Positions 41,414-46,523 of a DNA stretch of 50,583 bases are shown here, in pieces. Origin of the DNA: Methanobacteriota archaeon (GTDB taxonomy: Archaea; Halobacteriota; Methanosarcinia; Methanosarcinales; Methanosarcinaceae); the NCBI GenBank assembly GCA_016841625.1, contig JAENYU010000004.1, positions 99,209-149,791 of the forward strand. Direction: 5' to 3'. A program made the position numbers and the translations under genes. Positions within the stretch are counted from its first letter, which is position 1, and the number at the start of each line of letters is the position of its first letter. Below the pieces are notes generated by a model, which did not search any database, was not told the DNA's origin, and worked only from the letters and a program-made list of their open reading frames with translations.

Positions 41414-41803
41414 GCTTAGGATCAGAAAATGATGCCATCCTGATAAATCAGTCATCCTGATAAATCAGTCATCCTGATGAATCCGCCATCCTGATGAATC
41501 CGCCATCCTGATGAATCCGCCATCCTGATAAATCGGGACATCGGCTTCATCCGGAACCGTCCTAATTGTTGGCCAACATTGTTTCCAGAATTTTAAATTC
41601 ATAGATTTTACCACAGCAGACTCCAGATGCCCCTCTAAGAGCCAAAAACTCACAATGTATATAAGTAATCTGAACTATAGATACGTAGTCGTCATAAAGG
41701 AAAATTTACTATAAAGGTAGATTTGCTACCGGGTATTCTATATCGCTGGGGAGCGCTATGAAAAAGAGAGCGCTATTTAAAAAAATAGAAGGGGGTAATT
41801 TGA
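41414..41803. other. Spacer with repeat, palindrome, TATA box and short upstream ORF
   Basis: After the 17-bp repeat array come the 12-bp perfect palindrome TGTTGGCCAACA (41567-41578) and TGTATATAAG (41657-41666), a TATA box. A 35-codon upstream ORF starts at 41758 behind GGGGAG and ends at 41865, overlapping the kinase start in another frame. Confidence 0.5.
41436..41537. repeat. 17-bp tandem repeat, six copies
   Basis: The unit CATCCTGATRAATCCGC (or CAGT at its end) repeats exactly every 17 bases from 41436 to 41537. Three central copies are identical. Confidence 0.92.
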
Positions 41804-42751
41804 GTGGCAGAGTGCCATGTAAATACACTGAAACCAGGGGATCCTTTCAGGGACTGGCTCGTTGAAGAAGTGATGGAGCACAGGGTCCGGGACAAAAACT
41901 GCTGTGTTAAGGTCTTCAAGAACGGCTCTTCATCCCATACCGTCTGCAGGTATCACTTTGAAGGAGAAAATTTCAGTGTAATGGCAAAATTTTTTGCCGA
42001 GCCCACGGGAAGACTCAAGAATTACAATGCCTGCAAAGCCATGAAGAACGAATTCAAGAAGCTTGAACTTGCTGCATCCCTGATAAATGTTGCAAGGCCC
42101 CTTGCGATAAATAAAGAGTTTAACTGTGCCCTTGTAACCGAACATATACCCGGCAAACCTCTCAGCTGGTATTTCAAATCCGAAAAAAATCTTTACGAGA
42201 AGCTAACCGGGATGTCGCATATGCTCCGCAAACTTCACGACAACACCCGTTCCTCCTACAACAAAGAAAATGAGTTCAAAAACTACCACGGCGTCCTGGA
42301 CCACCTTACGCTCGACCACAGCACCCGGGAAACTTTCAACCGCCTTCTGGGGGAATGCTGGTACAGCGACCTGCTTGACCGAAAGCACGGCTGCATGATT
42401 CACAGGGACGTGCACCCCTCAAACTACATCTTTTACAAAGGCCAACCCTATGCCCTGGATTTCGAAAGCTCCTGGTTCCATGCAAACCCTGTCCGGGATC
42501 TCGGGATCCTCTCCGCAGAACTTAAGAACTATTTCGAGCAGAACAAAGGAGGAGGGGGGAAGGCCGAACCCTATATAGGCCATTTTCTCTGGGAATACAG
42601 CGGAGGGGATGAGAAGAATTTTATGGAGATTACGAAGGTTCTCCCCTTTTACATGAGTCTGGGACTGCTCCGTTCCGCAAGGCTACACCATGAAGTGTAC
42701 CAGGGTTATCTGGTTAGAGAGGCAATGGCATGCCTGAAAGCTATCAGGTAA
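41804..42751 (+). CDS. APH/choline-kinase-like phosphotransferase
   Basis: The 315-residue protein has a small-molecule kinase fold: ATP-site lysine K62 (FSVMAKFFAE), helix glutamate E83, hinge region VTEHIPGKPL, catalytic loop HRDVHPSNYIF (D202, N207) and metal motif DFE (219-221). The residues needed for activity are present, so phosphate transfer to a hydroxyl or amine is likely; the substrate is not clear. GTG 41804 follows a GGGGG site. An internally deleted second copy and three HAD genes follow, which suggests a shared pathway. Confidence 0.85.
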   Translation: MAECHVNTLKPGDPFRDWLVEEVMEHRVRDKNCCVKVFKNGSSSHTVCRYHFEGENFSVMAKFFAEPTGRLKNYNACKAMKNEFKKLELAASLINVARPLAINKEFNCALVTEHIPGKPLSWYFKSEKNLYEKLTGMSHMLRKLHDNTRSSYNKENEFKNYHGVLDHLTLDHSTRETFNRLLGECWYSDLLDRKHGCMIHRDVHPSNYIFYKGQPYALDFESSWFHANPVRDLGILSAELKNYFEQNKGGGGKAEPYIGHFLWEYSGGDEKNFMEITKVLPFYMSLGLLRSARLHHEVYQGYLVREAMACLKAIR

Positions 42752-42950
42752 AAGGTCAGTAAAATTGCGTCCCAGAGCCCAATAATCCGCAAATAATTAG
42801 CAAATAATGGAATCTGTTTTTACAAACATGCATCTTGCAGGAGTTAGCCTGATGATACCTGAAAGGCTGCAAATGATTGCCTGTAAGGCTATAAATATAA
42901 GCCAGTGCTATATAATAAGGGGAGGATATTTTGCGGGAGGAATCTTGAGG

Positions 42951-43171
42951 ATGGCCACTGGATTTGACATAATACAGGTTAGTACATTAAAACCGGGGGT
43001 TCCTTTCAGGGACTGGTTAGTTTCCTTTTCAGGGCACATAATTCACGACAGCACTTCTCTGTTCGGTTCTTCAAATACATCCCTTCATCCCATACCTCCC
43101 ACAATATCGAGATTATCTTATCAAATAACCCTGTCAAAGAAGCCCTGGCACGTTTGAAGGCTGTCAGATGA
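42951..43171 (+). pseudogene. Internally deleted copy of the adjacent kinase gene
   Basis: ATG 42951 opens a frame with VSTLKPGVPFRDWLV, matching VNTLKPGDPFRDWLV of the kinase at 41804. The DNA stays alignable to about CTTCATCCCATACC (kinase 41930-41943, here 43084-43097). In another frame the 3' end reads VKEALARLKAVR-stop (43133-43171), matching VREAMACLKAIR-stop of the kinase. Everything between, including all catalytic motifs, is missing. It is a relic of a tandem duplicate. Confidence 0.8.
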
Positions 43172-43180
43172 AAGGGGAAA

Positions 43181-43963
43181 TTGGGAGGCGAAAACATTTC
43201 TGAGATCTACGAACCGGAAATAACGGGAAGAGGGAGCGCATTCCTGAACTATCCCTCCGAAGAACCGGGAGAAGGAGAAGGAAAAGAAGAAATATTCGAA
43301 AGCTGCCGGATCAAAGGGGTTATCTTTGACTGCTACCAGACCCTTATCGACATTGATACCGATGAACACAGTCTGGAAACCTATGAGACGCTGAGTAGGT
43401 GGCTTGCGTACCAGGGAGTCGGAATCGAACCCAGAAAACTCAAGGATACTTATATGCTGAAAGTAAAGGAGAGGATGGACGAGTCTCTGGAAATATACCC
43501 TGAGATCAGGGTCGAGGAAATTTTTGCCGAGATCTGCAAGGAAAATGCAGTCTGGAGAATAAATGAAAAACGCCTGGGAATAGACACTTCAAGGACTTTC
43601 AGGGCTGCTTCAATCCGAAAACTCAAGCCCTTTCCCCAGAGTATAAAGCTGATCGAGCACTGTATCAACATCCCTAAATGCATCATCTCCAACGGGCAGC
43701 GGGTCTTTTCCGAACTTGAACTGAGGTACCTGGGGCTCTATGACTACTTCGACTTCGTGATCTTTTCCTCGGACGTCAGGTACAAAAAACCGGACCTGAG
43801 GCTTTTCATGGACGCACTAAAAAGGATGGGCCTGGAATTCCAGCCCAAATGCGTGATGTCCATAGGTGATTCCTATGAAAACGAGATACTCCCCGCCAGA
43901 AAGCTGGGGATCCGCGCCATGAACATTGAGGAAGCCTGGGAGAAGTTAGGGCTGAAAGAGTGA
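43181..43963 (+). CDS. HAD-like hydrolase, paralogue 1 (D-X-Y motif)
   Basis: The 260-residue HAD-fold protein has motif I FDCYQTLID, motif II CIISNGQRVF, motif III KKPDLRLF and motif IV SIGDSYENEI. The nucleophile Asp is present, but the +2 Asp that acts as acid/base in phosphatases is Tyr, as in haloacid dehalogenases. A helical cap follows motif I. TTG 43181 is the only conventional start; the Shine-Dalgarno GGGAGGCG (43183-43190) lies ideally for ATT 43196, which aligns with the ATG of paralogue 2. The three paralogues and the kinase form one cluster. The substrate is unknown. Confidence 0.85.
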   Translation: MGGENISEIYEPEITGRGSAFLNYPSEEPGEGEGKEEIFESCRIKGVIFDCYQTLIDIDTDEHSLETYETLSRWLAYQGVGIEPRKLKDTYMLKVKERMDESLEIYPEIRVEEIFAEICKENAVWRINEKRLGIDTSRTFRAASIRKLKPFPQSIKLIEHCINIPKCIISNGQRVFSELELRYLGLYDYFDFVIFSSDVRYKKPDLRLFMDALKRMGLEFQPKCVMSIGDSYENEILPARKLGIRAMNIEEAWEKLGLKE

Positions 43964-43971
43964 ATTTGCAA

Positions 43972-44001
43972 TACGGGAGTTGATCCCGTAAATTCTTTTT
44001 T
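43972..44001 (+). terminator. Hairpin plus T-tract terminator
   Basis: TACGGGA (43972-43978), a 5-base loop and TCCCGTA (43984-43990) form a perfect 7-bp stem followed by AATTCTTTTTT. It separates HAD paralogue 1 from paralogue 2. Confidence 0.7.
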
Positions 44002-44229
44002 GAAAAACCTTTGAACATTTTGAAATTTTTGAAAAGGCACGTAAAACTATATTTTTGACATTGATATTTACTTCTCGACTTCTTAGAAATTTGCCGATTT
44101 ATTGGAAAAGAAACTTCACCTATAAACATATAAGGAAACGTGAATAATATAGTTCGAGAAGAGGATATTTTACGGGAAGACATTTTAAGGAAAGAGATTC
44201 TGTGAGTGGGCACTTCAGGGAGAGGAAAT

Positions 44230-45024
44230 ATGTTGGAAAGCTATAAGATACAGGGGGAAGGAATTGAAAGCGTGCTTAAAAGCTACCAGATGGAAAAGAC
44301 CCGGGAACTCAGTGCCCCACCTGTGATAGAAAGGGTTTCGGTAACCAGAACCGTATGTGAGGGCAGCCCTATTAAAGGAATCATCTTTGACTGCTACCAG
44401 ACTCTTATCGACATCCACACCGACGAAGATGACCCGGAAACCTATAAAAGGGTGAGTATGTGGCTCGCTTACCAGGGCGTAAAGATCAGCCCTGAAAAAC
44501 TGCGGCATATTTATGAATTGAAAGTCAAGGAAAGGATGGACAGGTCCGAAGAAGAATACCCGGAAGTAAAGGTAGAAGAGGTTTTCAGTGAGATCTGCAA
44601 AGATCACGCGGTCTGGAGAATTGATGAAAAAAAATTGGGAACCGAAACTGCAAAGGTATTCAGAGCTGCGTCTATTCGAAAACTCCAGCCCTTTCCCCAG
44701 AGCATAAAGCTGATCGAGCACTGCATAAACATCCCCAAATGCATCATCTCCAACGGACAACGGGTCTTTTCCGAAATGGAACTGAGGTACCTGGGGCTTT
44801 ACGACTACTTTGATTTCGTAATCTTTTCCTCGGACGTAGGGTATAAGAAACCGGACCTCAGGCTCTTCATGGAAGCTCTCAAGAAGCTGGGAATGGAACT
44901 CGAACCAAAGTGTGTGCTGTCCATCGGAGACTCTTATGAAAATGAGATCCTGCCTGCCCACAAACTCGGGATGTGCGCCATGCATATCGAGGATGCCTGG
45001 GAGTTTTACGGGGTAAAAGATTAA
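44230..45024 (+). CDS. HAD-like hydrolase, paralogue 2 (D-X-Y motif)
   Basis: The 264-residue protein has a 48-residue N-terminal extension, then motif I FDCYQTLID (D54, Y56), CIISNGQRVF, KKPDLRLF and SIGDSYENEI. From PFPQSIKLIEHCINIPKCII onward it is nearly identical to paralogue 1, including at DNA level, which shows recent duplication or conversion. AGGGAGAGG precedes ATG 44230; the longer GTG start at 44206 is less likely. It has its own leader after a terminator, so it may be transcribed separately. Confidence 0.87.
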   Translation: MLESYKIQGEGIESVLKSYQMEKTRELSAPPVIERVSVTRTVCEGSPIKGIIFDCYQTLIDIHTDEDDPETYKRVSMWLAYQGVKISPEKLRHIYELKVKERMDRSEEEYPEVKVEEVFSEICKDHAVWRIDEKKLGTETAKVFRAASIRKLQPFPQSIKLIEHCINIPKCIISNGQRVFSEMELRYLGLYDYFDFVIFSSDVGYKKPDLRLFMEALKKLGMELEPKCVLSIGDSYENEILPAHKLGMCAMHIEDAWEFYGVKD

Positions 45025-45522
45025 CTTTGGAAAAGTAAGAAGTTTTCTCACAATTCAAGCCTGTTGAACGGCCCGGATAGCCCGACTTCTCCTGTATTGC
45101 TGCCATCTCCTTTTTTGCCTACCTCAATTTATTATCTGATTCCCATAACCATTCTTTCAATACCCATACCTCTCCGCCACATTTCTCTCCACTCTTCCAA
45201 TTTCCGGAAAAATTCCGAAATCTTTTTTAATATATTTGGTATTTTGGTTCCTGTATTTGGCTTTTGATCTGCTTCTCAGGATCAACTACCCCTGAACTGA
45301 AGATCCTGAACTGAAGATTCGGAGATTTAACATTGAGGTTTTATGACCGAATCTTATCAACCTTCTATTTGAATGAATCATCATATATATAGATATATAA
45401 GAAGTATATAGATACTTGCATAAGGGATATATTCAATCGTATTATTTTAGATATTGAGAGAAAAAATAATAGACAAAACGAAAAAAGAAAAAAATTGAAA
45501 AAAATTAAATGGGAGGGCCTCA
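45025..45522. other. Long spacer before HAD paralogue 3
   Basis: There is no gene. CCTGAACTGAAGAT is tandemly doubled at 45291-45318. TATATATAGATATATAAG near 45384-45402 offers TATA boxes about 125 bases before the next start. Confidence 0.45.
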
Positions 45523-46176
45523 ATGCTACAAAACGGAAAGATAAAAGGCTTGATTTTTGACTGTTATAAAACCCTCGTCGATATTAAAACCGATGAGAGA
45601 AGCAGGGAAACAAATCAGCGTGTCAGCCACTGGCTGCTCTACCAGGGTGTGAGGATAGAATCCGAACGGCTCAGAGAAGTATATAAGTGGAAGGTCGTCG
45701 ACAGGCTGGGTAACTCTGGACAGCAGCATCCCGATATCCGTATCGAAGAGATATTTGGAGAGATCTGTGCCGAAAACGCTTACCGTGAAATAGATCCCTA
45801 CTGGCTGGGTATCGAAACTGCGAAAATATTCAGGACAGCATCCATCAAAAAGCTGGAAGCTTATCCCCAGAGCCGGGCGCTCCTTGAAAAATACAGGCAG
45901 GTTCCCAAATGCATCGTTTCCAATGCCCAGAGGGTCTTTACCGAACAGGAATTACGTTTCTTAGGCTTATATGATTATTTTGACCATGTAATCCTCTCCT
46001 CAGATCACAAAATAAAGAAACCGGATACCCGGCTTTTTCAAATGGCTCTCGACCACCTCGGCCTCGAACCCCATGAAGTACTCTCCATCGGGGACACCCC
46101 CGAAAACGATATCTATCCACCCCAGAGCCTTGGCATGAATGCAATGCACATCCATGATGCCTGGCGCTATGCATAA
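45523..46176 (+). CDS. HAD-like hydrolase, paralogue 3 (D-X-Y motif)
   Basis: The 217-residue protein lacks the N-terminal extension of the others. Motif I is FDCYKTLVD (D13, Y15), followed by CIVSNAQRVF, IKKPDTRLF and SIGDTPENDI. It is clearly homologous to paralogues 1 and 2 along the whole domain but more diverged, so it marks the older duplication. GGGAGGG lies before ATG 45523. The shared D-X-Y motif shows that the loss of the second Asp predates the duplications and is not decay. Confidence 0.88.
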   Translation: MLQNGKIKGLIFDCYKTLVDIKTDERSRETNQRVSHWLLYQGVRIESERLREVYKWKVVDRLGNSGQQHPDIRIEEIFGEICAENAYREIDPYWLGIETAKIFRTASIKKLEAYPQSRALLEKYRQVPKCIVSNAQRVFTEQELRFLGLYDYFDHVILSSDHKIKKPDTRLFQMALDHLGLEPHEVLSIGDTPENDIYPPQSLGMNAMHIHDAWRYA

Positions 46177-46523
46177 CGAAAAAAATCAAGGGACAATCAC
46201 GGAAAAAAATCACGGAAAAAAATCACGGAAAAAAATCACGGAAAAAATTTCAACTAACAGATTCTCATATTTTCCCATCATTCCTGAATCATCCCTCTAC
46301 GGGAAAAAGCAAGGCAGTAAAAAGTTATTTAGGAATCTTCCTCTTTTTTAAAGTTCCAGACCTTCGACCCGTTTTCTATTTTAAGAGTGGAAGGTTACAG
46401 TGATTCCGTGTTTTAGACTGGAACTCCCGTTTCCGTCCCAAACCAGATATATTTAAATAATCGCAAGCACTCTAAAACCCAAGAAATTCATACACTATTT
46501 CCCAATCATCGGAGTGTTTTTAC
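46177..46523. other. Spacer before valS with TATA box
   Basis: There is no gene. After the 13-bp repeat array, GATATATTTAAATAA (46446-46460) is a TATA-like box about 65 bases before valS. Confidence 0.5.
46197..46248. repeat. 13-bp tandem repeat, four copies
   Basis: TCACGGAAAAAAA repeats at 46197, 46210, 46223 and 46236 (last base changed), 20 bases after the HAD paralogue 3 stop. Confidence 0.92.

Follow-up and report, generated by a model that had tools for sequence, protein, structure and literature searches.

An APH-fold kinase and a D-x-Y HAD protein form a conserved archaeal gene pair with a possible role in alpha-glucan metabolism

The kinase-HAD locus in the window, by which we mean the whole analysed stretch of 50,583 nucleotides, represents the expansion, at the level of the genus, of a conserved module of two genes, in which an APH-fold kinase gene is followed by the gene of a HAD protein whose motif I reads D-x-Y. 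Because genes of alpha-glucan metabolism recur beside this pair in several archaeal families, we read it as a previously undescribed accessory module of archaeal alpha-glucan (glycogen) metabolism, a reading to which we give about an even chance. The association with glycogen genes is new relative to the initial annotation of this DNA, which was based on the window alone, and we found no literature on the kinase-HAD pair in Methanosarcina. If the genomic context has been read correctly, two conserved, uncharacterised genes would be added to the archaeal glycogen pathway, and because Methanosarcina is genetically tractable, the role of the pair can be tested directly. In addition, a strictly conserved D-x-Y next to a kinase represents an unusual HAD active site that is worth study in itself. 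A 2024 review describes archaeal glycogen metabolism and its regulation as mainly unexplored (PMC11046441).

Structure and age of the locus in the window

The kinase carries the residues K62, E83 in helix C, H200-x-D202-x4-N207 and D219-F-E221 (Table 1), and, judged by sequence, its predicted catalytic HxDxxxxN and metal-binding DxE/D motifs are intact. K62, E83, H200, D202, N207 and D219 were invariant among 30 kinase homologues, and H200, D202, N207 and D219 were at least 97% conserved across seven families. The closest match among profiles of solved structures was amicoumacin kinase (E=1e-3), there being no close solved relative, and a Pfam scan at E values up to 0.1 returned the APH domain only, with no maltokinase N-cap (Mak). 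Structure predictions for the kinase (3 sequences, mean pLDDT 38.5) and for HAD3 (6 sequences, mean pLDDT 48) were unusable.

Table 1. Kinase and HAD features of the locus, with Pfam matches (cut-offs: PF01636, 23.2 bits; PF00702, 26.4 bits)
Feature	Position	Strand	Pfam match	Description
APH-fold kinase	41804-42751	+	PF01636, 28.4 bits	intact; GTG start; 315 aa
Kinase remnant	42975-43171	+		second copy with only its 5' and 3' ends left; interior missing, frame broken
HAD1	43181-43963	+	PF00702, 57.8 bits	260 aa; motif I FDCYQTL; N-terminal extension of ~40 residues
HAD2	44206-45024	+	PF00702, 62.1 bits	motif I FDCYQTL; start more probably at ATG 44230
HAD3	45523-46176	+	PF00702, 68.8 bits	217 aa; motif I FDCYKTL; long AT-rich gap upstream

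The remnant consists of three collinear matches to the kinase, at 42975-43022 (81%), 43053-43096 (77%) and 43134-43171, the last of which matches the 3' end of an orthologue at 87% (E=1.7e-8). A remnant is found at the same position in G011 and G025, two genomes of the window's genus, where it has decayed differently; in both of them (L083 and L084, between the kinase and HAD1) its middle is made up of expanded GGGAATCAATTCA-type short tandem repeats, which represent repeat growth within a pseudogene. Broken kinase fragments are also present elsewhere in Methanosarcina genomes (G178, G179, G077:C10 and G085:C1:3857446), indicating that duplicate kinases decay repeatedly. In the window, tandem 17-nt repeats (CATCCTGATRAATCNGN) lie immediately 5' of the kinase at 41434-41535, and tandem 13-nt repeats (AATCACGGAAAAA) directly follow HAD3 at 46195-46246.

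Profile scores above the cut-off and the presence of all four motifs assign HAD1, HAD2 and HAD3 to the HAD superfamily (PF00702/PF13419), and D13, S133, K165/K166 and D191 were invariant among 24 HAD homologues. HAD1 and HAD2 share 68% amino-acid identity overall and 81% in the last half, with 97% identity confined to two adjoining blocks of 30 codons. HAD3 is 55% identical to HAD1 and fell within a separate, older clade in the phylogenetic tree; it is 81-95% identical across Methanosarcina and the window's genus, and its clade is also represented in one Methanohalophilus-type genome, by a gene lying immediately 5' of one for a GT3 glycogen synthase-like protein. The initial annotation had recognised an intact APH-like kinase gene, a second kinase copy reduced to its ends and three HAD paralogues on the same strand, the third of them older, and all of this was borne out. 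Its description of HAD1 and HAD2 as nearly identical in the last half was overstated, as this applies to 60 codons only.

Synonymous sites between HAD1 and HAD2 are near saturation, with a dS of 1.55 in the window and of at least 2.1 in relatives, and the copies are therefore not recent. Both genes are carried by all four genomes compared in the window's genus, and nucleotide identity is 0.69-0.72 between paralogues vs. 0.84-0.92 between orthologues. Taken together, these findings place the duplications before the radiation of the genus. Thus, the repeated local duplication proposed initially is real, but it is not a fresh burst, being old and common to the four genomes. The data do not support a recent conversion event linking HAD1 and HAD2, since the 60-codon block is similar in all four genomes and orthologues are closer overall. 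The kinase and all three HAD genes have evolved under purifying selection, with dN/dS values of 0.05-0.16 against their orthologues (0.10-0.13 for HAD1 and 0.07-0.08 for HAD2).

A single kinase gene with a single HAD gene is the common arrangement outside the Methanosarcina-type genera. Within these genera, an N-terminally extended HAD follows the kinase and a gene of the HAD3 clade lies further on, while HAD2 is an addition of the window's genus. A kinase followed by three HAD genes has also arisen in family f28 (L160). The third tandem HAD at that locus (L160:3655-4272) reads FGCYGTL, the Asp nucleophile being replaced by Gly.

Linkage of the kinase and HAD genes across archaea

Among 101 Methanosarcinaceae genomes, the kinase was found in 52, and the HAD was found in exactly the same 52. 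The two genes are adjacent on one strand in all 50 genomes that could be checked, contig ends permitting, and a same-strand HAD lies within 1.5 kb downstream of the kinase in 49 of the 52; in G008 the HAD is upstream, and in G035 and G097 a contig end lies beside the kinase. The matched kinase and HAD regions share a few to 19 bases in 24 genomes outside Methanosarcina and the nearest genera, an arrangement like that of translationally coupled genes. An order-wide search recovered the kinase from Methanosarcinaceae alone, and profile searches widened to the class and to the phylum detected it in the further families f7, f9, f27, f28, f11 and f15. A HAD gene adjoins the kinase at 7/7 kinase loci in f9, 5/5 in f27, 1/1 in f28, 2/2 in f11, 2/3 in f15 and 8/13 in f7, where either gene order occurs and several of the remaining loci are short contigs or fragments. 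Adjacency was thus observed in seven families, Methanosarcinaceae and six more of the phylum. Among the genomes searched, we take G347 and G369 to be Methanoculleus, G245 and G254 to be Methanocella, G008 and G033 to be Methanohalophilus, and G085 to be M. acetivorans, from which L082 probably also comes. One f7 genome, G190, has two tandem kinases with no HAD nearby (L132:6900-8842) and a third copy with a HAD at L134.

These results support the functional linkage suggested by the initial annotation. It had called for a search of Methanosarcinales genomes and held that homologues scattered and never adjacent would make the linkage accidental; the opposite was found.

Alpha-glucan context, HAD active site and possible function

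Genes of alpha-glucan metabolism were found near the pair in five families, in differing gene orders, at all f27 loci and at some loci elsewhere. All five f27 loci consist of a same-strand run of GH57-GT4(-GT4-GDE)-kinase-HAD with the pair at its end; one or two GT4 genes are present, three of the five loci have the glycogen debranching enzyme (GDE), and the genes overlap or almost touch. The f28 locus reads GH57-GT4-GT4-kinase-HAD-HAD-HAD, and L162 of f11 reads GH57-GH15-GDE_C-kinase-HAD. In f7, the kinase adjoins a GT4 gene in L128 and a GH13 alpha-amylase gene in L135. The pair is accompanied by GT3, a GalT-like enzyme, GT4 and GH57 at the Methanohalophilus-type loci L100 and L101 (f1), and a GT4 gene is flanked by divergent kinases in L082 (f1). 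The pair stands within a run of glycogen enzymes in f27, f28, L162 of f11 and Methanohalophilus and not in the window, whose genome has GT3 and GT4 on another contig (C24), detached from the pair. Likewise, no glycogen genes adjoin the pair in most Methanosarcinaceae or at any f9 locus.

GT4 occurs in 52/52 kinase-positive vs. 32/49 kinase-negative Methanosarcinaceae genomes, a difference that is supportive only because the counts are uncorrected for shared ancestry, and in 17 of 18 genomes with the kinase that were examined in other parts of the phylum. GT3 and GT4 are present without kinase or HAD in Methanococcoides-like g3 genomes, and GT3 is missing from four genomes that carry the kinase. 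Obligatory co-occurrence with glycogen genes was rejected on these grounds, and the module is dispensable for glycogen.

Of 82 readable HAD copies, 81 have D-x-Y as motif I and the remaining one has G-x-Y, so that the D-x-D of canonical HAD phosphatases was found in none of the 82. The HADs retain the Asp nucleophile, the motif II Ser, the motif III Lys and the motif IV Asp/Asn; in every HAD of the window motif IV is GD[ST]xEN[DE], which is of the phosphatase type. The second Asp of motif I acts as both general acid and general base in phosphoserine phosphatase (PMC6321591), and HAD phosphatases of glucan pathways have D-x-D (PMC11046441). Because Tyr replaces this acid/base Asp, the HAD half of the pair is not a standard phosphatase by sequence. 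The simple cycle of phosphorylation and dephosphorylation that had been envisaged for the locus is unsupported as written, since the replacement is present in every HAD of the window.

As an accessory glycogen module, the pair might work as follows. GH57, GH15 or debranching enzymes would set free glucose, maltose or a short piece of glucan, which the kinase would phosphorylate, and the HAD would then act on this product or on a related metabolite. It might hydrolyse a substrate whose leaving group is good, form a long-lived aspartyl phosphate or carry out non-phosphatase chemistry. The least secure part of this proposal is the HAD reaction. The substrate of the kinase is probably a sugar, the two proteins presumably serve one pathway, and we infer that the detached copies of the Methanosarcina type keep a glycogen-linked role. 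A more tentative possibility is that the pair provides archaeal glycogen metabolism with a new phosphorylation step or switch, such as a glucan-fragment or glycogen kinase partnered by a HAD that functions despite lacking the usual acid/base Asp.

Alternative explanations and known systems

Tetrapyrrole genes, valS, an MscS-type channel gene or CBS genes are the neighbours of the pair in the window and in most Methanosarcinaceae. They are consistent with a pair that serves the salvage or detoxification of small molecules other than sugars, in which the kinase would phosphorylate some other metabolite, the HAD would degrade the product and the glycogen neighbours would be secondary in some lineages. 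The Methanococcoides-like genomes with glycogen genes and no pair fit this explanation, as does the match to amicoumacin kinase, an antibiotic kinase. However, at the loci read, no other functional class is as widespread beside the pair as the alpha-glucan genes recurring in five families, and we consider such a salvage function doubtful.

The invariant Tyr at the position of the acid/base Asp, in an active site that is conserved in the remainder, would also suit a regulatory pair in which the kinase targets a protein or glycogen and the HAD serves as a sensor or eraser by means of a long-lived aspartyl phosphate or partner binding. The extra HAD paralogues, including the one without a nucleophile in L160, fit non-catalytic roles, and a non-catalytic, protein-binding HAD is known (PcrP, PMC12632274). 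Nevertheless, APH-fold enzymes are mostly small-molecule kinases, and the conservation of the nucleophile and the Mg-site residues in nearly all of the HADs argues for catalysis, making regulation unlikely. Far less probable is an accidental linkage left by local duplication without a shared function. Duplication did occur at the locus, and kinase fragments lie elsewhere in Methanosarcina genomes, but the perfect co-occurrence in 101 genomes, the adjacency in seven families and the inverted gene order in part of f7 are hardly compatible with chance, and the linkage data rule it out.

Returning to the proposed glycogen module, we compared its components with characterised proteins. Type II 2-haloacid dehalogenases (TIGR01428) have a Tyr at position +2 of motif I, which is the same as in the HADs studied here, but their motif IV is S-x-N-x-x-D instead of the phosphatase-type G-D-x3-N of the window HADs, and the best score of these HADs against TIGR01428 was 57 bits, below its cut-off of 125.4. 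The best NCBIfam match was TIGR02253 (CTE7), a family that includes PH1655 and has a similar fold length; the score of 94.5 bits is nevertheless below the cut-off of 169.75, and PH1655 has a canonical FDLDDTL motif. A sequence match to azetidine-2-carboxylate hydrolase (PDB 3smv) was also obtained (E=4e-9). OtsB and sucrose-phosphate phosphatase are likewise HADs with an Asp nucleophile and a Mg site, in their case in glucose-disaccharide metabolism, but they carry D-x-D-x-(T/V) (PMC11046441), whereas the HADs here carry D-x-Y-x-T. The same review describes, for the GlgE pathway, the maltokinase Mak/Pep2 together with GlgM, a GT4 enzyme, which likewise places an APH-fold sugar kinase near alpha-glucan genes and a GT4 in the pathway. 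The kinase studied here differs in lacking a Pfam match to the Mak N-cap, Mak was not among its solved-structure profile matches, and its partner is a HAD rather than TreS. Finally, the glycogen clusters of Picrophilus and Methanoculleus (GT4, GH57 and GH133) contain the enzyme classes also found beside the pair, although no kinase-HAD pair is listed among the members of the archaeal clusters in the available portion of PMC11046441.

Other neighbours were noted at individual loci. A possible pointer to methylthioadenosine salvage, a phosphorylase-like gene, lies several genes away from the pair and in Methanohalophilus only. An island of an Opp/Nik-type ABC transporter and two divergently transcribed SAM methyltransferases separates HAD1/2 from HAD3 in L067, L070, L073 and L085, and it lies beside HAD1 in L074, L077 and L080; several Methanosarcina genomes and, within the window's genus, G035 have this island, but the window does not. 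In several Methanosarcina genomes, the kinase is preceded by a second, unrelated APH gene (L066:11268-12248; 141.5 bits to PF01636, with a weak fructosamine-kinase match) that lies upstream in divergent orientation, and L083 also has a member of its cluster.
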